Source: Lacrimispora xylanolytica (GTDB lineage Bacteria; Bacillota; Clostridia; Lachnospirales; Lachnospiraceae). Taken from it: a stretch of DNA of 64,000 nucleotides. Position 1 is the first letter of the stretch. The number at the start of each line of letters is the position of its first letter. The translations under genes and the position numbers were made by a program. Shown here in pieces: positions 11,998 through 48,765 of the stretch. Location of the stretch: assembly GCF_026723765.1 (NCBI RefSeq), contig NZ_CP113524.1, positions 3,829,001 to 3,893,000 of the forward strand. The letters are read 5' to 3'. The notes beneath the pieces were generated by a model, which saw only the letters and a list, made by a program, of their open reading frames with translations, ran no database searches and was not told the DNA's origin.

Positions 11998-13251
11998 TTA
12001 AATATAGAAATAATACGAATTTAAAAGATATTCCAGATTACGTTTCACAGCACAGGTAAATAAATGTTTTTTTACCGTAGCAATAGAATTATCATTTTCT
12101 TTATATCCCTTCAGAAGCTTTTGATACCGGTTCTTTTCTGCATTTGTGGATTCTTTGCTGATATACCCCCACACATGTTCCGCTGCATTGACCTCCGCCC
12201 CCATATCCTCTGGCAGAAGCATGGCCTCTTCCACTCTGGTATAGAACTCTCTTGCAACCGGCTCTTTCTTATCCTTTAATAGCTGCCTGATTTCTGTATA
12301 GATTCTTGCCGAACGGCTGAGGACATAATATTTATACCTTGCCCATTCCTTTTCCAGTTCCACTGCCTTTGCATTGAGGAAAACAGTGTTAATGCATTTA
12401 TTGGCAGATAAATTCTTATCTTTCACCTCCAGCATAATATCTGCTTCCAGGGGAACCAGGGGATAAAAGTCCTCAAATGGCTGGAGAAATACGGTTTCAG
12501 AATGTCCGCCCACCGGGGAATTCTTTCCTTGCTGGGAATAATGAATCTTTTGCCTTCCATCCACCTTTTTCCAGGTCTTTTTACATTCCAGCATCCATTC
12601 CTGCTCTGTGCAATTCGTTTCAGATGGTTTAATAGCATTATGAAGATTATCAAAAACCACTGGAGAACCCGTTTGATAAGCTATATTTAAAACATCTTCC
12701 ACAGTATAGCTCTTATCGTCATTTTCCAGAATCAAACGGCTCCTTATAGAGTCAGAAAGCAACAGGTAATTCTCTACAAACCGACTGGAAGCTTCCTTTT
12801 TATCTCCATAAACACCTCCGATATGAAGCACCAGCTTGCTGGTTTGATCCATTCCCAGGGCATTTAAAAAACGGTCGTGATACTCTAAATCCAGAATGGC
12901 ATTGGCAATGGTAGACGAATCCGGGGAATTTAACACGGTATACTGTCCGGGGTGCATGGACACTCTGATGTTATTATTTTTAATTTTTTCACCCAGAGCC
13001 GTAAACATTTCCTCAAATTCCTCCCACCAGATCAGCTAATTGGCTGGATGGGAACCAAAGGGAATGATATCTGAACTGAGACGGAAAAAATGAATGTTGT
13101 TTTCTATATTATAATGAAGCATGGCATCCAAAGCGTTTAAATTATGATGGATTAAGCTTCTTAAATTATCTTCACTGGCATTTTTTAAAATACATCTTGA
13201 CGTTTCCGTTCCCGGAACTCCTATCACCTGACATGCGTATCCAATTGACAA
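11998..13251 (-). pseudogene. uvsE: UV damage endonuclease uvsE interrupted by an in-frame amber codon
   Basis: UvsE is an apurinic/UV-lesion endonuclease of the TIM-barrel type. The reading frame from TTG 13251 (RBS AGGAGG, 8-nt spacing) codes for the N-terminal 71 residues ending RLSSDIIPFGSHPAN, then meets TAG at 13036-13038, and continues in the same frame as LIWWEEFEEMFTALGEKI through 336 further residues to 11998. Family motifs on both sides (SMHPGQYTVLNSP, HIGGVYG, LILENDDKSYT, VFDNLHNA) show one gene of about 417 codons. The residue lost is probably Gln or Lys (CAG or AAG to TAG). GGGAGGAATTTGAGGAA precedes ATG 13008, so the larger fragment might be made by reinitiation, but it would lack the first barrel strand. 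A sequencing error remains possible. Confidence 0.85.
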
Positions 13252-13396
13252 TCCCTCTTCCTCCTATGAGCCTGGAATCCCGATTATAAAATGAGACGCA
13301 CCAGCTAGTAGATATTTAGTAATAAAAAATACTAATACAGAAAGTATCTCCAAAAAACATGCCAATATGATACCATAAAACAATCTATGAAACAAT

Positions 13397-13450
13397 TAAA
13401 AATAGCCCTGTAGCTATGGTTTCGGATAAACCATATCGGGCTATTTTTAA
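13397..13450. terminator. bidirectional terminator after the aconitase-family gene
   Basis: AAAAATAGCCC (13398-13408) pairs with GGGCTATTTTT (13438-13448), with an inner stem TATGGTTT/AAACCATA. T-runs exist on both strands. It lies 9 bp after the hydratase stop codon and closes the prpF-carrier-hydratase operon. Confidence 0.88.
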
Positions 13451-13458
13451 TGATTTAC

Positions 13459-15750
13459 TTATGCATTCACAAATTTATTGCGGTTGTAATTGATTAAAGA
13501 GCCAGAGAGTACAATTTCTTTTTCATTATCGGTCAATGCTTCCCAATATAAATGAATCTCTCTGACGGTATCACCAAGAATGTAGCCGGTGATTTCCTGT
13601 TTGCCTTCTGCGATGGCAGCTTTCATGCCGGGGATAAAGATATAATCATCCACCTCAAAATCAGGCTCTTCCTTTGTCTGGAATGGAATCATCCCCCAGT
13701 TGATAACATTGGAACGGTAACGCTTGGTTGCATACTCTTTACAGATGTTTGCAAGTCCGCCAATCACTCTTTGGCAGCTGGCTGCCTGTTCGCGTGCGGA
13801 GCCGTCTCCTGGCTTTGTACAGTAGATCACACTTCCTATTTCAATGGAGGTTAAATCCTTTCCTGCTGCCGGATACACTTCAGTGATTTTATCATAAACA
13901 TGGCTGATTTCAGAAGGAACTGAATTGCCTTCTACTCTGGATTTTTCCAGTACAGCCACAGCTTTTGCTTTTCCAACGTATTCAGGGTCTCTTCTTGAGA
14001 GAGTAAATTCTGCTAATCCCAATGGATTGGAACGATAAGAAGCAGTTTCTCCTGATGGGATCAGTTCGTCTGTTGTGGTAACTTCATCAAGAATCTTGGA
14101 ACATACCTTTAATAATACGTGTTCTCCTAAGGAACTCATCTCCGGCCAGTCCTTAATATTTGGACCGTATACAAGCTCTTCCTCATCCTTTCCTTCATCA
14201 AAGCCCTGGTAAACTCTGTTACGGTAAGCGGAGTCATCAAAATGGTAATCGTATACTGGATACTCATCGACGACATCAGTAGCAGGAGTCAGTATTCCGT
14301 TGTTAATTGTAGTTGCTGCAATGGAACGTGCGTCCATAAGTGCTACGGAGGTCATCTGTCCATTGCCTGGCTTGGAACCGTCTCTGTTGATGAAGTTTCT
14401 TGTGGTGTGACGAATGCTTAAGCCGTTGTTGGCAGGGGTATCTCCAGCACCAAAGCAAGGGCCGCAGAACGCTGTTTTTACAATTGCACCAGCAGCCATT
14501 AAGTTAGAAACCACACCCTTTTTCGCCAATTCCATATAAACCGGAACAGAGGATGGATAAACGGATAAGCTGTAATCCTTATCAATTGCAGTTGCTTTTG
14601 AAATGATTTCAGAAGCTTCATATACATTGTTAAAGTTACCACCGGCACAACCGGCAATGATTCCCTGCTGAACCTTTAACTGATTGTTATGAATCTTATC
14701 CGTGAGCTTGAAATCGATATTTGGATTGTTAATTAATTTTTTAGCATCTACTTCTACTTTGTGAAGAATATCGTTTAAATTACTATTTAATTCTTTAATA
14801 GAATAAACATTGCTTGGGTGGAAAGGCAATGCAATCATGGATTCAATCTTGCTTAAATCCACATATACGGCACCATCATAGTAAGCCACTGCTTCTGGCT
14901 GTAATTCCTTGTAATCTTCCACTCTTCCATGAATATTTAAAAATTCTTTTGTATCTTCATCTGTCTGCCAGATGGAGGTTAAGCACGCGGTCTCTGTAGT
15001 CATAACGTCAATACCGTTACGGAAATCAGTGGAAAGATTTGCGATACCAGGACCTACGAACTCCATTACTTTATTTTTAACATAACCGGATTTGAATACC
15101 TGTCCGATGATTGCTAATGCAATATCCTGGGGTCCAATACCGGGCTGTGGTTTTCCATCTAAATAAATCGCTATTACTTCAGGGTATTCAATATCATAAG
15201 TGTCACCGATGATCTGCTTCACCAGCTCACCGCCGCCTTCGCCGATAGCCATGGTTCCAAGGGCACCGTATCTTGTATGACTGTCAGAACCGATAATCAT
15301 CTTTCCGCAGCCAGCTAACATTTCCCTCATAAACTGATGAATGACAGCTACGTGGGGTGGAACAAAGATTCCGCCGTATTTCTTAGCAGCAGAAAGTCCA
15401 AATACATGATCGTCTTCATTGATGGTTCCGCCAACTGCACAAAGGGAGTTGTGGCAATTGGTTAACACATAAGGAATTGGGAACTTCGTCATTCCAGATG
15501 CTTTTGCTGTTTGAATGATTCCGATATAGGTTAAATCGTGAGATGTCATGGAATCAAATTTAATTTTCAGGCTCTGCATGGAGTCGGACTGATTGTGCTC
15601 TTTTAAGATACCATAAGTAATGGTTCCTTTTTTCGCCTGCTCCTTATCCAATGGTCCGTTGTTTCGTGCTTCTAATTCTGCGATATTTTCCTCGGAAATA
15701 AGTTCATTGTTGCCGACAAGAAAAGCACCTTTTTTGAATATGTCTAACAT
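13459..15750 (-). CDS. aconitase-family hydratase (YbhJ-like)
   Basis: A 763-residue member of the aconitase superfamily. The [4Fe-4S] ligands are visible as TETACLTS and [30 protein letters not shown] is the conserved substrate-site region, and the C-terminal swivel domain contains [16 protein letters not shown]. It is closer in flavour to the uncharacterised YbhJ group than to the housekeeping AcnA/AcnB. ATG 15750 is chosen because GAGGAGGACAAAC precedes it; an ATG 15 bp upstream overlaps that binding site. Its operon partners are a CitMHS carrier and a PrpF-like isomerase, so the likely substrate is an (un)saturated tricarboxylate such as aconitate, a methylated analogue or tricarballylate-derived compound. 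The exact substrate is inference. Confidence 0.9.
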
Positions 15751-15821
15751 GTTTGTCCTCCTCATGTTTCAATCAAGTTGGGGTGCTGCGAAACGAAACA
15801 ACACCCCTATTTTGTTACGTA

Positions 15822-17189
15822 TTAGTATAAAAATGGAACTGGAAGTACACCAATTAAAATTGCAATGATAAGCTGGATAAAGTAGCTTGGAATACCCCAT
15901 TTTAAGTATTCCTTCTGATAATCAACAAAGCTTACTTCTGTACGGTCTACCAGTACATATAAGAAAGCAACCAATGGACTGGCGAAACGAACGGCCTGTC
16001 CCATTAAGGATGCAACACCGATATCCACTGGAGTCGCACCAAAGCTGTAAGCGATCGGTGCAATAACTGGAAGAATACCGAAGTAGAACGCATCATTAGG
16101 AAGGAAGAATAATCCTGGTAAAGAGATTAATGCAAGTAATAACGGAATGTATCCGCCCATGCTGGCTGGTAAAAGAGAAACGATCTGCTCAGCCATTGCT
16201 GTACTGATACCGCTGCCGTTTAAGATACCCATAATTACACCAGCACCAAATACTAAGCTAACAGGTCCTAACGCTTCTGCACCGTTGGCAGTCAGTCTTT
16301 TTGCCTGAAGGTTCGGATCTTTGAAGTTAACGATTAAAGCGACCGCTGTACCGATTAAGAATAAAAGTCCGCCGTTAACAACATCAAGAATCAGTAATAC
16401 CATGATAAATACAGTTAATGCAAAGTTGAAAAGTAATAATTTAGGTTTCTTTAATCCTTCCGGATCTTCGTTAATGGATTTGATGATATGTGCTAAATCG
16501 GAATCATTGATAATACTGGAACCAACGGTATAACCTAAACGTGCACGCTCTTTCTTACCGTAGGAGTATGCCATATAAACAGTAAGGATAATTGCACCAA
16601 TCATTCCAGGAATTAAAGGTGTGAAAAATTCTTTTGGTCCGATGTTTAAAACCGGCATAGCTCGTGCCATCGGTCCACTCCATGGTACAAGGTTCATGAT
16701 GGAGTTTGGAATCGCGATTAAAACAGCCAGATATAACTGGTTCATCTTCATCTTCTTAAACAGGGATAATACAGCCGCAGTTACGATTAAAACGGTTGTG
16801 GTACCATCACCATCTAAGGATACTACCATGGAAATGGCTGCTGTTGCTAAACAAAGTTTAAGGGGATCACCTTTTGCCCATTTAATCAGTAACTTGCTAA
16901 GTGGATCGAAAAGACCAACATCCAGCATGATAGAGAAAAATAAGATAGCAAACAGTAACAATGTAATTGTAGGTGCAACACCTGCTTTTACTTTTGTGCC
17001 ATTAAACTGGTAATAAAGTCCCTGATAAATCCAATCAAACACTTCCAGGAAGGAAACATGCTGATAAGCTGCTACGATAAAGCCAAACGCCAGTGGAACC
17101 AAGATCAGACCTGCGAACGGAGAAATCATTTTTCTCAGAAGCAGGAACATAAATACGATAATCATTAAATATCCCAATAATGCTAACAT
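15822..17189 (-). CDS. CitMHS-type citrate/tricarboxylate transporter
   Basis: A 455-residue integral membrane protein, hydrophobic from its first residue, with about 11-12 predicted helices. Features such as VVSLDGDGTTTVLIVTAA, the MNLVPWSGPMARA segment and LPNDAFYFG fit the CitMHS/ion-transporter superfamily, which takes up metal-citrate or related tricarboxylates with protons. ATG 17189 follows GAGGAGAGTAAAAACAT. It lies between a prpF-like gene (30 bp upstream) and the aconitase-family hydratase (71 bp downstream), which makes it the import step of this pathway. The metal and substrate cannot be read from the sequence. Confidence 0.9.
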   Translation of the reverse strand: MLALLGYLMIIVFMFLLLRKMISPFAGLILVPLAFGFIVAAYQHVSFLEVFDWIYQGLYYQFNGTKVKAGVAPTITLLLFAILFFSIMLDVGLFDPLSKLLIKWAKGDPLKLCLATAAISMVVSLDGDGTTTVLIVTAAVLSLFKKMKMNQLYLAVLIAIPNSIMNLVPWSGPMARAMPVLNIGPKEFFTPLIPGMIGAIILTVYMAYSYGKKERARLGYTVGSSIINDSDLAHIIKSINEDPEGLKKPKLLLFNFALTVFIMVLLILDVVNGGLLFLIGTAVALIVNFKDPNLQAKRLTANGAEALGPVSLVFGAGVIMGILNGSGISTAMAEQIVSLLPASMGGYIPLLLALISLPGLFFLPNDAFYFGILPVIAPIAYSFGATPVDIGVASLMGQAVRFASPLVAFLYVLVDRTEVSFVDYQKEYLKWGIPSYFIQLIIAILIGVLPVPFLY

Positions 17190-17219
17190 ATGTTTTTACT
17201 CTCCTCAAATAAGAATTTG

Positions 17220-18359
17220 TTAGTTAAAAAATACGGTGCCGGTTAAAATCTTACGAGCCGTACGGTAGGAGGTTACAGAATGTACCTCTACAGTACCGTC
17301 CTCTGATTTCTCATAATCAATACAGCCGCTGATGGTTCCGCTGCTATGACCTAATGTATAGGTATTATTTTCAGCTGCATGCTTTTTCACCAGACGGTTT
17401 GGAATTGTTCCCGGAATCACACTGGCTGCAAGAGTACATAATGCACCTGTTAAAGCAATGCTCTTATGTGCCTTTTGCATGCTCATCATTCGAATGGACA
17501 AATCATAGTCCAATTCGCTGATTATGTTTCCAGACGCATCTTCATAAACCTTTGATGGAGCCACTAATGTTAATTTCGGCACTCCAGGTGAAATGGTTGA
17601 ACTGTCTTCCAGATTTTTTATGAGCCCCATTTTCAAGGCAGCCGTTCCTCTTATTCGCTCCAGCTTCTCAAGTAATGCCTGGTCGCCGTCAATTTCGCTT
17701 ACCTTCTCATAGCCTGTTAAGCCAATCTCTCTGGCATCCACATACACCAGGGGATTGCTTGCATCAACGATGGACATCTCCACGTCGCCCACTCCCTCCA
17801 CAGAAAAGACATCAGAGCTATTTCCTGTAGGAAGCAGTTTTCCTGTTAATGATCCTGCTGGATTCACAAACGTTAAATCAATCTTAAGACCTTTTCCCGG
17901 TACACCAGCAATTTTAAAATCCTCTGAGTATATCAGTTCTCCATTGGGAGTAGGTACGCTTTCCTCAATTACCTTTTTTGTGTTGGTATTATATACCTTC
18001 ACGATTGTAACTGGATCCTGAATTTCCACCATCTTATTTTCAATGGCAAAGATTCCAACAGCTGAGGAAATGTTTCCGCAGTTTCCTGCATAGGACACCA
18101 CCGGCTTGTCTACAGATACCTGGGCAAAGGTATAATTTACATCCCAGGGCTCATTAAGCTCCTTAGAAATAATTGCTACCTTGCTTGTCGTAGATACCGC
18201 ACCGCCGAGTCCGTCAATCTGTCTGATATCCGGGCTTCCCATGACTTTAAGTAAGACCTGGTCCAGATCATCCGGTAGATTTTTCAAGTCCTCCTCTAAC
18301 AGGAAGACCCCTTTACTAGTTCCACCTCGGTAAATACTACACTTTAATTCTCTCAACAC
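17220..18359 (-). CDS. PrpF-family isomerase
   Basis: 379 residues of the PrpF / 4-oxalomesaconate tautomerase family (diaminopimelate-epimerase-like fold, cofactor-free allylic isomerisation). Hallmarks are the N-terminal YRGGTSKGVFL, IDGLGGA, and the YAGNCGNISSAVGIFA segment. PrpF proteins are known to act on cis/trans isomers of aconitate or 2-methylaconitate, so next to an aconitase-family enzyme and a citrate-type carrier this one plausibly converts trans-aconitate (or a methyl derivative) to the cis form. The start is GTG 18359 with AAGGAG nearby. It is the first gene of the operon, behind an 808-bp regulatory region. Confidence 0.88.
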   Translation of the reverse strand: MLRELKCSIYRGGTSKGVFLLEEDLKNLPDDLDQVLLKVMGSPDIRQIDGLGGAVSTTSKVAIISKELNEPWDVNYTFAQVSVDKPVVSYAGNCGNISSAVGIFAIENKMVEIQDPVTIVKVYNTNTKKVIEESVPTPNGELIYSEDFKIAGVPGKGLKIDLTFVNPAGSLTGKLLPTGNSSDVFSVEGVGDVEMSIVDASNPLVYVDAREIGLTGYEKVSEIDGDQALLEKLERIRGTAALKMGLIKNLEDSSTISPGVPKLTLVAPSKVYEDASGNIISELDYDLSIRMMSMQKAHKSIALTGALCTLAASVIPGTIPNRLVKKHAAENNTYTLGHSSGTISGCIDYEKSEDGTVEVHSVTSYRTARKILTGTVFFN

Positions 18360-18615
18360 TCACCACTCCTTAATAACTTTGTACACCCTTTTATCAATGT
18401 ACAATTATTTTTTGTGTAAAAAAATAAGAGAGCTCTATTTTTCTACCCACACTTCCATCGCCTTTTGTCTTGATAACTAACCGAAATTACGTTCTTTTGT
18501 ATCGGCATAATCTGTTTTCCCCATAACTATCATCTTTCCCCATGTTGACTCCTGATACGCCAACCCCACTGAATAGTGGTAGTAATAAGAAGAGTTATCG
18601 TATGGTTTTGTACTC

Positions 18616-18635
18616 ATTGTATACTTGTATACAAT
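18616..18635. promoter_or_regulatory. GntR-type operator, copy 1
   Basis: ATTGTATACTTGTATACAAT, a perfect 9-2-9 palindrome. First of three copies in the 808-bp gap 18360-19167 between the GntR gene and the prpF-like gene; it lies 257 bp upstream of the prpF-like GTG. The palindrome size and A/T-flanked GTATAC core fit FadR/FCD-subfamily GntR sites. The rest of the gap is AT-rich and holds no convincing gene. Confidence 0.82.
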
Positions 18636-18718
18636 TTAAGAAATAAAAAAACAATATTATTAGATAAGACCAAATGTTTCCCCCCTCCGTCCTAACTCAA
18701 ATATGAAAAAGATCAGCT

Positions 18719-18738
18719 ATTGTATACCTGTATACAAT
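18719..18738. promoter_or_regulatory. GntR-type operator, copy 2
   Basis: ATTGTATACCTGTATACAAT, identical to copy 3 and differing from copy 1 only in the 2-bp centre. It starts 103 bp from copy 1, close to ten helical turns. Confidence 0.82.
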
Positions 18739-18837
18739 TTGTAATAAAAAAAATGGTTTTGTTTCTATCACACCTTCTCATATTCTGTTTCTTAAGACTT
18801 CTCATTTGGCTTTTTTCATTCATAATAATATAGTTTT

Positions 18838-18857
18838 ATTGTATACCTGTATACAAT
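18838..18857. promoter_or_regulatory. GntR-type operator, copy 3
   Basis: ATTGTATACCTGTATACAAT, 119 bp from copy 2. On the minus strand TTGTAT inside the site with TATATT downstream could serve as -35/-10 hexamers (18-bp spacer), so repressor binding would overlap a promoter. The promoter assignment is tentative. Confidence 0.8.
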
Positions 18858-19167
18858 CTGTAATGCAAATTATACTTTGGAAGTTCCTGCTCTCTATGTT
18901 TGTATTATATTATGGTTCTAAAAAAAATGCAATCCTTTTTACAATTTTTTTTTACAATTTTCGACATTATTGTGCACATTGTCCATAACCTACCAGCAGG
19001 CCTCCGGCAACCCCCACAAGTAAGTGTCGGATTTTCCATGTTTTGTGTAATATTTTCCTTTTTAGCTCACCTCCTACTTTTCACTAAGGCTTGCCAGCCA
19101 TAGTCTTTATCACATAGGAGGCATTTTGCACAATACTTATGGGATCCTTGGGAGATCAGATGTTTGA

Positions 19168-19842
19168 TTAAAACAAATGGATCTCTTTTGTCAGAAACTT
19201 CTTTGCATTTATGGTATGCTCTCTGCCAATCTGCTCCGCTAATAGTTCATCTTTCTTTTCAAAGGCCTCAATCAATGCCTTATGCTCTTTCATCGCCACT
19301 TCTCTTCTCTTATTCATGACCAGAGTAAAATTTCTAAGCTTTGATAAATACTCATAAATCTGTTTCATTTGATCGATCAGCCTTTTATTGTTGCTTTGAT
19401 GTACGATGCTGTCGTGGAATTCGTCATGTGTTTTCCAGTATTCTTTGATATCCTCATTTTTAATACACTGCTCCATCATAAGAAGCTTGTTTTTTAATTC
19501 TGATATCTTAATATCAGTCATATTTGCGCACGCTAAACGGAATGCCAAGCCTTCCAGAACCTCCCTGATCTCGTAAATCTCATAAATATCTGCTTTGGAA
19601 ATTCCTTTTACAATGGTTCCCCTTCTTGGAAGATTCTCAGCCAATCCTTCAATTTCTAATTGCCGGAACGCTTCTCTTACCGGAGTCCTGCTTACTCCCA
19701 TCCCTTCTGCAATGGATGTTTCCACCAAGCGGTCTCCAGGCTTTAGAGTGCCTGCCATAATAGCCTTTCTAAGCCTTTCCAGTACGATTTGTCTGATAGG
19801 CCTTAGATCCGTGCTTTCTATCTTTTCATATAATTGCTCCAT
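19168..19842 (-). CDS. GntR-family (FCD domain) transcriptional regulator
   Basis: 224 residues: a winged-helix GntR domain at roughly residues 8-70 (LERLRKAIMAGTLKPGDRL, VSRTPVREAFRQLEIEGL) followed by an all-helical FCD ligand domain with the metal-binding-type histidines (EFHDSIVHQSNN). Such regulators usually sense organic acids. The start is set at ATG 19842, preceded by AAGGAAGTGAATTT, rather than an ATG 18 bp upstream that overlaps this binding site. It lies directly upstream of, and in the same direction as, the prpF-carrier-hydratase operon, separated by three matching palindromes, so it very probably controls that operon and responds to its substrate. Confidence 0.92.
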   Translation of the reverse strand: MEQLYEKIESTDLRPIRQIVLERLRKAIMAGTLKPGDRLVETSIAEGMGVSRTPVREAFRQLEIEGLAENLPRRGTIVKGISKADIYEIYEIREVLEGLAFRLACANMTDIKISELKNKLLMMEQCIKNEDIKEYWKTHDEFHDSIVHQSNNKRLIDQMKQIYEYLSKLRNFTLVMNKRREVAMKEHKALIEAFEKKDELLAEQIGREHTINAKKFLTKEIHLF

Positions 19843-20007
19843 AAATTCACTTCCTTGCATTTTGCATGTATTTTTATGTGTACCAGTTTGCCATAACCTT
19901 TTTGGGGTTTAATGGACCTCCTATACTGGCAGGACTCCTAAAACACTCCATTAGATATTATAATCTGCCCAACATTTTATGTCTATACTTATCTATGGAA
20001 TGAACCT

Positions 20008-48440: not shown

Positions 48441-48477
48441 AAAAAACTCCCGCCCTTTTGTTTCAAAAGGACGAGAG
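48441..48477 (-). terminator. T-box terminator of tyrS
   Basis: Minus strand CTCTCGTCCTTTTG-AAA-CAAAAGGGCGGGAG then TTTTTT: a 14-bp stem. The upstream arm overlaps the antiterminator's partner region, as expected in T-box control. Confidence 0.9.
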
Positions 48478-48765
48478 CAAATCTCGTGTTACCACCTTAA
48501 GTTCGCAGACAGCTCACACTGTCTACCTCATCGGGTACGGCCTTGGCGATACCCTTGCACTTGATCACGGTGTGCTTTCCGTCGCAGCCTACTCCTGTTA
48601 AAGTTTTGGTGCGCAGCTCCAAGACGTATTCACACTTTCTATCCACGAGCCTCTCATCAACCGGCATCTTTCTGTTTGGAATCGAAAATGCTACTCTTTC
48701 TTTTCATAGCCTTTTCTTATACTCCGGATTGCATGGCAATCCTTTGTAGTGCAAATATTTAATTA
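48478..48765 (-). promoter_or_regulatory. T-box riboswitch (tyrosine) upstream of tyrS
   Basis: The conserved T-box element AAGGTGGTAACACG lies on the minus strand at 48485-48500, directly before the terminator. The upstream Stem I region runs to about 48765. A TAC (Tyr) codon in GTGTGAATACGTC is a plausible specifier. Uncharged tRNA-Tyr would stabilise the antiterminator and switch tyrS on. Confidence 0.92.

Follow-up and report, generated by a model that had tools for sequence, protein, structure and literature searches.

A probable trans-aconitate uptake and utilisation operon with a YbhJ-like hydratase and three operator-like palindromes in Lacrimispora xylanolytica

The 64,000-nucleotide stretch of Lacrimispora xylanolytica DNA analysed here (contig NZ_CP113524.1, positions 3,829,001 to 3,893,000; below, the window) contains an operon encoding a PrpF-family isomerase, a CitMHS carrier and a YbhJ-like hydratase, preceded by the gene of a GntR/FCD regulator. 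We consider it probable that this locus is an inducible operon for the uptake and utilisation of trans-aconitate. A first-pass annotation of the window had grouped the three enzyme and carrier genes into one operon; all were found on the minus strand where it had placed them, and their families were confirmed with Pfam and NCBIfam profiles, securely at the level of the superfamily, as was that of the regulator it had noted upstream (GntR, 4.8e-18; FCD, 1.7e-26). The features of the locus are as follows:

19168..19860, minus strand: GntR/FCD transcription regulator gene (Pfam and NCBIfam profiles); likely start at the ATG at 19842
18904..18932, minus strand: putative promoter, TTGCAT-17-TATAAT (first spotted by eye; gap alignment)
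18838..18857: operator-like palindrome 1, ATTGTATACAGGTATACAAT on the minus strand (pattern scan of window and genome, relatives)
18719..18738: operator-like palindrome 2 (pattern scan of window and genome, relatives)
18616..18635: operator-like palindrome 3 (pattern scan of window and genome, relatives)
17220..18359, minus strand: PrpF-family isomerase gene, probable aconitate (trans/cis) isomerase (profiles; Lys60 and Cys94 present)
15822..17189, minus strand: CitMHS-family (TIGR00784) tricarboxylate carrier gene, probable importer (profiles)
13459..15765, minus strand: YbhJ-like (NF008503) iron-sulphur hydratase gene of the aconitase family, probable aconitase (profiles, residues)
13395..13451, minus strand: terminator-like hairpin, then a T-rich stretch (folding against shuffles)

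As calculated from the coordinates, 30 bases separate the isomerase gene from the carrier gene and 56 the carrier gene from the hydratase gene. The operon had been described as closed by a terminator, and folding bears this out: the hairpin 3' of the hydratase gene has a predicted stability of -25.6 kcal/mol (z -6.1), equalled by none of 200 shuffles. A simple consensus scan did not report it. At the other end, the annotated limit of the locus, 19842, coincides with an ATG internal to the regulator frame and located just after AAGGAAG; it is more likely to be the start than is the ATG at 19860. The 808 bases between the regulator and isomerase genes hold no convincing gene: all three frames in the operon direction are broken by stops, and the window's list of open reading frames has none within this interval that reaches 80 residues. 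Much of this gap is missing from two related loci (L020 and L021).

The PrpF protein matches PF04303 over its full length (1.2e-123, residues 5-377). Its Lys60 and Cys94 are invariant in all 77 rows aligned, 68 of which differ from one another, and align with K73 and C107 of Shewanella oneidensis PrpF; K73 and C107 mutants of that enzyme fail to support growth on propionate, and the enzyme itself catalyses the isomerisation of trans-aconitate, with which it has also been crystallised (PMC5690661). The carrier is recognised by the Pfam CitMHS profile (5.8e-26) and passes citMHS TIGR00784 with 378.6 bits against a cut-off of 259.7; by family it is a probable tricarboxylate importer. The hydratase, 768 residues long, matches Pfam Aconitase (1.9e-90) and, weakly, Aconitase_C (6.9e-05), and scores 1328 bits against the YbhJ-type profile NF008503, about twice the cut-off of 641. 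It was aligned in 57 full-length rows, partial sequences being dropped: 23 from the 62 loci described below, 30 from a family survey, the copies L013 and L014 from elsewhere in the genome, the window and E. coli, with two rows representing the same gene. C373, C434 and C437 correspond to the three [4Fe-4S] cysteines of pig aconitase (C358, C421 and C424) and are kept in every row. The same holds for the equivalents of pig H101, D165, S166, H167, E262, R447, R452, R580 (placed by motif spacing), S642 and R644, which we take to be among the residues that matter for substrate or catalysis.

To place the operon among its relatives, 62 loci were fetched from named genomes with the window PrpF as query, PrpF thus being present by construction. 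Neighbouring genes were labelled by tblastn at 1e-10 against named examples, the main ones being checked with Pfam; genes too divergent for this threshold are scored as absent, and several of the loci are cut off by the end of a contig (including L031, L053, L058, L063 and L071). In 24 of the 62 a carrier of the same type (68-100% identical) lies directly after PrpF. Eight of these loci are from Streptococcus, seven from Trichococcus, three from Enterococcus, four are of the Lacrimispora type, one is from a metagenome bin, and one is in a record labelled Sedimentibacter, with a PrpF that groups among those of Trichococcus; because many are close relatives, they amount to about five independent cases rather than 24. 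A hydratase gene is found nearby in every one of them, the slot being filled by three different enzyme families: YbhJ-like in five loci (the four of the Lacrimispora type, which have the GntR gene, and the metagenome bin), AcnA in 11 (Trichococcus, Enterococcus and the Sedimentibacter-labelled record) and MmgE/PrpD in the eight from Streptococcus. The regulator is of the LysR type in the 19 AcnA and PrpD loci and GntR in the Lacrimispora type, where copies 80-100% identical to that of the window occupy the equivalent position (4 of the 62 loci). The neighbourhood search for the same four families that the first-pass annotation had proposed thus finds them in relatives, but narrowly, in these four loci and in one more without the regulator.

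The PrpF proteins of the 24 loci form a single clade (100% SH-aLRT), along which the AcnA label changes twice and the PrpD label once; it therefore appears that the hydratase was swapped while the PrpF-carrier pair persisted. Judged from these sequences, the isomerase-carrier pair is the stable part of the system, and the hydratase and the regulator are its exchanged parts. All three hydratase families act on citrate-like or methylcitrate-like acids, and their convergence on this position is the best argument that the product of the isomerase is an aconitate-type compound which would then be hydrated.

A second group, 31 of the 62 loci, has a MatC-type carrier, and 19 of these have a YbhJ-like hydratase. 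Seven loci have no recognised carrier, four of them with a hydratase (in one case with a PrpD-like gene as well) and three without. Citrate lyase genes are located near PrpF in 14 of the 62 loci (10 of the MatC type with a hydratase, two from Streptococcus, L042 and L070), most clearly in L067, where the order is hydratase-PrpF-MatC-citDEF-citXG-citC. The carrier and hydratase genes of Acidaminococcus intestini (L076) are separated by an isocitrate dehydrogenase-like gene with 58% identity to that of the window genome. These onward enzymes point to citrate or isocitrate rather than to methylcitrate. A plain naming as isocitrate dehydrogenase was dropped for both proteins, which score below every cut-off, and only the "-like" form is used here. 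Genes of another transporter class were also seen at some loci: those of the tripartite tricarboxylate transporter, TctA and TctC, upstream of PrpF in four Oribacterium loci (L047, L048, L056 and L079), and a TctC-like gene between hydratase and PrpF in L049, L053 and L055.

One alternative explanation of these data is that the operon serves the utilisation of citrate or isocitrate (as metal-citrate), with the PrpF protein as an accessory. The score of the carrier over the citrate:proton symporter cut-off and the linkage of citrate lyase in relatives would both fit. Citrate, however, requires no PrpF isomerase, and the carrier follows PrpF directly in 24 of 24 CitMHS-pair loci, all of them selected by the PrpF query; we therefore regard a citrate operon as unlikely, if still worth keeping in mind.

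Candidates for both onward routes are encoded outside the operon, since the genome contains two citDEF (citrate lyase) loci and an isocitrate dehydrogenase-like gene; for this reason the description of the locus as "self-contained" was too strong. The aconitase profile PF00330 gives six matches in five genes of the genome: leuC, a classical aconitase (L015; 651 residues, 835 against 612 bits) whose gene immediately precedes the isocitrate dehydrogenase-like one, and three YbhJ-like genes, one in the operon, one (L013) beside citrate synthase (618 against 426 bits) and one (L014) between LysR-like genes. The methylisocitrate lyase gene prpB (TIGR02317) gave no match at E 0.001 in this 99.9% complete genome; as a control, eight of 14 genomes gave matches in the same search, four of them above the cut-off. 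This result bears on the possibility that the locus encodes a 2-methylaconitate isomerase and a 2-methylcitrate dehydratase, as do AcnD and PrpF in propionate catabolism. The shared isomerase superfamily and the MmgE/PrpD partners in the Streptococcus loci are in its favour. With no prpB match, a PrpF protein far below the cut-off of the PrpF equivalog and, as a matter of general knowledge, no need for a dedicated importer of propionate, it is the least probable of the explanations considered. The AcnD-PrpF pair of S. oneidensis does resemble the window operon in combining a PrpF-family isomerase, with the same Lys and Cys, and an aconitase-family partner (PMC5690661), but its role is in the 2-methylcitrate cycle, the lyase of which was not found in the window genome.

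The closest characterised precedent is the tar system of Bacillus velezensis FZB42, in the literature surveyed the one genetically characterised operon for import and isomerisation of trans-aconitate, a plant acid used as food by bacteria of the soil and the gut. There, as deletion and assay showed, the PrpF-superfamily isomerase TarA and the importer TarB support growth on trans-aconitate (PMC11495376). By its description, tarRAB is like the window operon in having a PrpF-superfamily isomerase gene directly before a carrier gene, and its own regulator nearby. It differs in that its importer belongs to the MFS rather than to CitMHS, its regulator is a divergently encoded activator of the LysR type rather than a GntR/FCD protein encoded in the same direction, and it has no hydratase. 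TarA favours the trans form, making trans-aconitate far more efficiently than it removes it, and the inhibition of aconitase by trans-aconitate is restated in that work (PMC11495376). The preference of TarA would also suit an operon for the production and export of trans-aconitate, like tbrAB of Bacillus thuringiensis. The window carrier, however, is a member of a family of symporters that takes its name from citrate, and the sister loci are tied to citrate breakdown, leaving the export of trans-aconitate a very small chance. A plasmid search for a close PrpF relative or tbrA returned, among the matches listed (40 and 60 rows of 352 records), identities of at most 42.9% and none from Bacillus.

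Two further systems resemble the operon in part. Acidaminococcus fermentans uses trans-aconitate, fermenting it via citrate, oxaloacetate and pyruvate, and its MatC carrier gene Acfer_0630 adjoins the "aconitate hydratase domain protein" gene Acfer_0631; the available part of that report lists no isomerase (PMC3035267). In another strain of A. fermentans (L052) we found a LysR gene followed by genes for PrpF, MatC and a YbhJ-like hydratase (1343.6 bits against 641), and we infer that this is the same locus as Acfer_0630-0631. The isomerase (52% identical), the carrier and the YbhJ-like hydratase (64%) are adjacent there as in the window; the carrier is of the MatC type and the LysR gene divergent, in place of CitMHS and GntR/FCD. 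The first-pass annotation had pointed to the related ybhHIJ genes of E. coli. In the ybhDHIJ set of strain K-12, the PrpF-family protein YbhH is 37% identical to the window isomerase and YbhJ is 64% identical to the hydratase over 763 columns, but at 1e-5 the carrier YbhI does not match the CitMHS carrier of the window, and the regulator YbhD is a LysR protein. The E. coli set is uncharacterised; a link to malate has been suggested (PMC9068703).

The 808-base gap contains three perfect 20-base palindromes of the form ATTGTATAC-NN-GTATACAAT, at 18616, 18719 and 18838, located before the isomerase gene and spaced 103 and 119 bases apart, which had been overlooked previously. With up to three mismatches allowed, the pattern occurs three times in the window against 0.04 expected, and in the whole 4.5 Mb genome the three operon palindromes are the only sites with zero to two mismatches. 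A wider regulon was sought genome-wide: five further sites with three mismatches were found, the reversed pattern, run as a control, matching four times at three mismatches or fewer. FCD regulators bind GTATAC-type palindromes, and each palindrome contains two GTATAC boxes, so that it could bind two dimers. Three perfect copies are also present in each of L018 and L019. L020 and L021, whose regulators are 80-81% identical to that of the window, have two palindromes each, 32 bases apart and with two mismatches apiece, one box being altered per site. The more distant loci tested (L022, L028 and L031) have no palindromes. In an alignment of five such gaps palindrome 1 stands out as an island of conservation, in register in all five, and 46-48 bases ahead of it all five carry TTGCA, one further base, 17 bases and TATAAT. 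This putative promoter has a weak -35 and was not reported by a consensus promoter scan; that scan gave 19 sites against 26.9 in shuffles, and its matches therefore carry no weight. The distribution of the sites suggests that the GntR/FCD regulator acts at this single operon.

Taken together, these observations suggest the following pathway. The CitMHS carrier would import trans-aconitate, the PrpF-family enzyme would convert it to cis-aconitate by means of Lys60 and Cys94, and the YbhJ-like iron-sulphur hydratase would add water to give citrate or isocitrate. Citrate would then be cleaved to acetate and oxaloacetate by the citrate lyase encoded at two other genome loci, and/or isocitrate would be oxidised by the isocitrate dehydrogenase-like enzyme, whose gene also lies outside the operon. 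Control is probably by repression, with the GntR/FCD protein bound at the three palindromes until its FCD domain takes up a tricarboxylate. That such an operon should have a hydratase of its own is understandable from two facts on record, the preference of an isomerase of this kind for the trans form and the inhibition of ordinary aconitase by trans-aconitate. Import, trans-to-cis isomerisation and hydration had already been proposed in the first-pass annotation; the gene context, the A. fermentans phenotype and the TarA precedent all argue for this sequence of steps. Assimilation of trans-aconitate as such is already known, and it is the gene combination and the control sites that look new: to the tar system the window operon would add a version with its own hydratase, a different regulator and clear operator-like sites.

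Several observations weigh against trans-aconitate utilisation. The PrpF protein scores below the NCBIfam cut-off of 4-oxalomesaconate tautomerase (332.9 against 440) and far below that of the PrpF equivalog (284.9 against 440.55), and with both named equivalogs missed the family name does not give the substrate. Its best solved match is not an aconitate isomerase but 3-methylitaconate isomerase (Mii; 3g7k, 283 bits). CitMHS proteins are named for citrate. No hydratase gene lies within reach in 12 of the 31 MatC-type PrpF loci, of which one is at a contig edge, and the isocitrate dehydrogenase-like proteins of the window genome and L076, for which this family is the best match, reach only 239 and 203 bits against 509. 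In the hydratase, the equivalents of pig Q72, D100, N170, N258 and N446 are replaced in all 57 YbhJ-like rows and that of S643 in 56, and E. coli YbhJ has been termed a catalytically inactive aconitase paralogue, with reference to other work (PMC4054840). These replacements do not mark the operon hydratase as special, since they also occur in E. coli YbhJ and in the copy next to citrate synthase (L013).

The similarity to Mii could also mean that the operon encodes part of a methylated dicarboxylate pathway. In the dimethylmaleate/methylitaconate pathway, Mii acts together with dimethylmaleate hydratase, to which the two enzymes of the operon would correspond. What is found near PrpF in other genomes is different, the onward enzymes being citrate lyase and an isocitrate dehydrogenase-like protein, although many neighbouring frames are unnamed; we thus give a methylated dicarboxylate substrate a low probability.

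The hydratase of the proposed trans-aconitate locus also raises a broader point, namely whether the YbhJ family is enzymatically active at all. We surveyed 150 genomes of the bacterial family, each from another genus, the family being taken as Lachnospiraceae from named relatives. The YbhJ-type profile was over the cut-off in 138 of them, AcnA in four, AcnB in none, and a PRK07229-type aconitase in 10 by tally (at least six among the matches listed); two of the twelve genomes scored as lacking the hydratase carry fragments of it at contig ends. PrpF was found in only six of the 150. Within the genus, taken as Lacrimispora, 14 of 25 genomes gave a PrpF match, five of the window type (83-100%), eight at 52-53% and one at 42%. 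Citrate synthase (PF00285) is present in 132 of the 150 genomes: 127 have both it and the YbhJ-type hydratase, 11 the hydratase only, five the synthase only and seven neither (Fisher p 6e-5, a value that takes no account of relatedness and to which incomplete genomes contribute by inflating the last class). A citrate synthase gene adjoins the YbhJ-like gene in six of 30 survey loci fetched, which were among the best-scoring rather than a random draw.

These data make the YbhJ family look like the ordinary aconitase of this bacterial family, with dedicated copies in the PrpF loci. Two classes of genomes count against that view: the five with the synthase in which the hydratase is not over its cut-off, and among the matches listed for these neither AcnA nor PRK07229 was over the cut-off; and the 11 with the hydratase and no PF00285 synthase. 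A Re-type citrate synthase would escape PF00285. That YbhJ proteins are working iron-sulphur aconitases, despite the "inactive" label in print, is in our estimate a serious possibility, somewhat short of an even chance. If true it would surprise specialists. Whether E. coli YbhJ, a protein of no known function, is a real aconitase can now be tested directly, and cheaply. The claim that the operon hydratase is not the housekeeping aconitase accordingly needs dividing: the genome does have other aconitase-type enzymes, but the family to which the hydratase belongs is probably that of the ordinary aconitase.

In the best hydratase tree the PrpF-linked copies are split over separate clades, interspersed with the other copies, but a single origin could not be rejected (p-AU 0.39). 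An earlier conclusion that YbhJ-like genes had been recruited into PrpF loci at least three times was withdrawn on that account. Without the long-branched L044 row three changes are needed, two of them forced by well-supported branches; all trees were quick searches with one support measure. The L044 row is a second, diverged YbhJ-like protein of Oribacterium sp. P6A1 (L044, 949-4566), 48% identical to that of the window and the sole row of 57 to retain S643. Its gene adjoins an isocitrate/isopropylmalate dehydrogenase-like gene a few kb from the PrpF gene, and the locus has an ordinary YbhJ-like copy as well. In the window genome, the YbhJ-like gene between two LysR-like genes (L014, 7573-9873) has no PrpF or CitMHS neighbour that we could see, and its product belongs to the same well-supported set of the tree as E. 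coli YbhJ. The genome also has a second PrpF gene (L016, 7348-8487), 41% identical to that of the operon; its immediate neighbours, read by eye, include no obvious carrier or hydratase gene.

The genes flanking the four-gene locus are taken as not part of the unit. Upstream of the regulator, the frames were read by eye as unrelated genes. An Rfam scan of the window revealed no RNA element at the locus, its sole match over the gathering score being a T-box leader at 48464-48716 on the minus strand (105.5 bits). Downstream of the operon lie a uvsE-like gene (Pfam) and then frames named by eye as leuB and ilvD. The uvsE-like gene (11998-13253, minus strand) is interrupted by one in-frame stop, which leaves an open frame of 336 residues; in L018 and L019 it is intact, at 417 residues.

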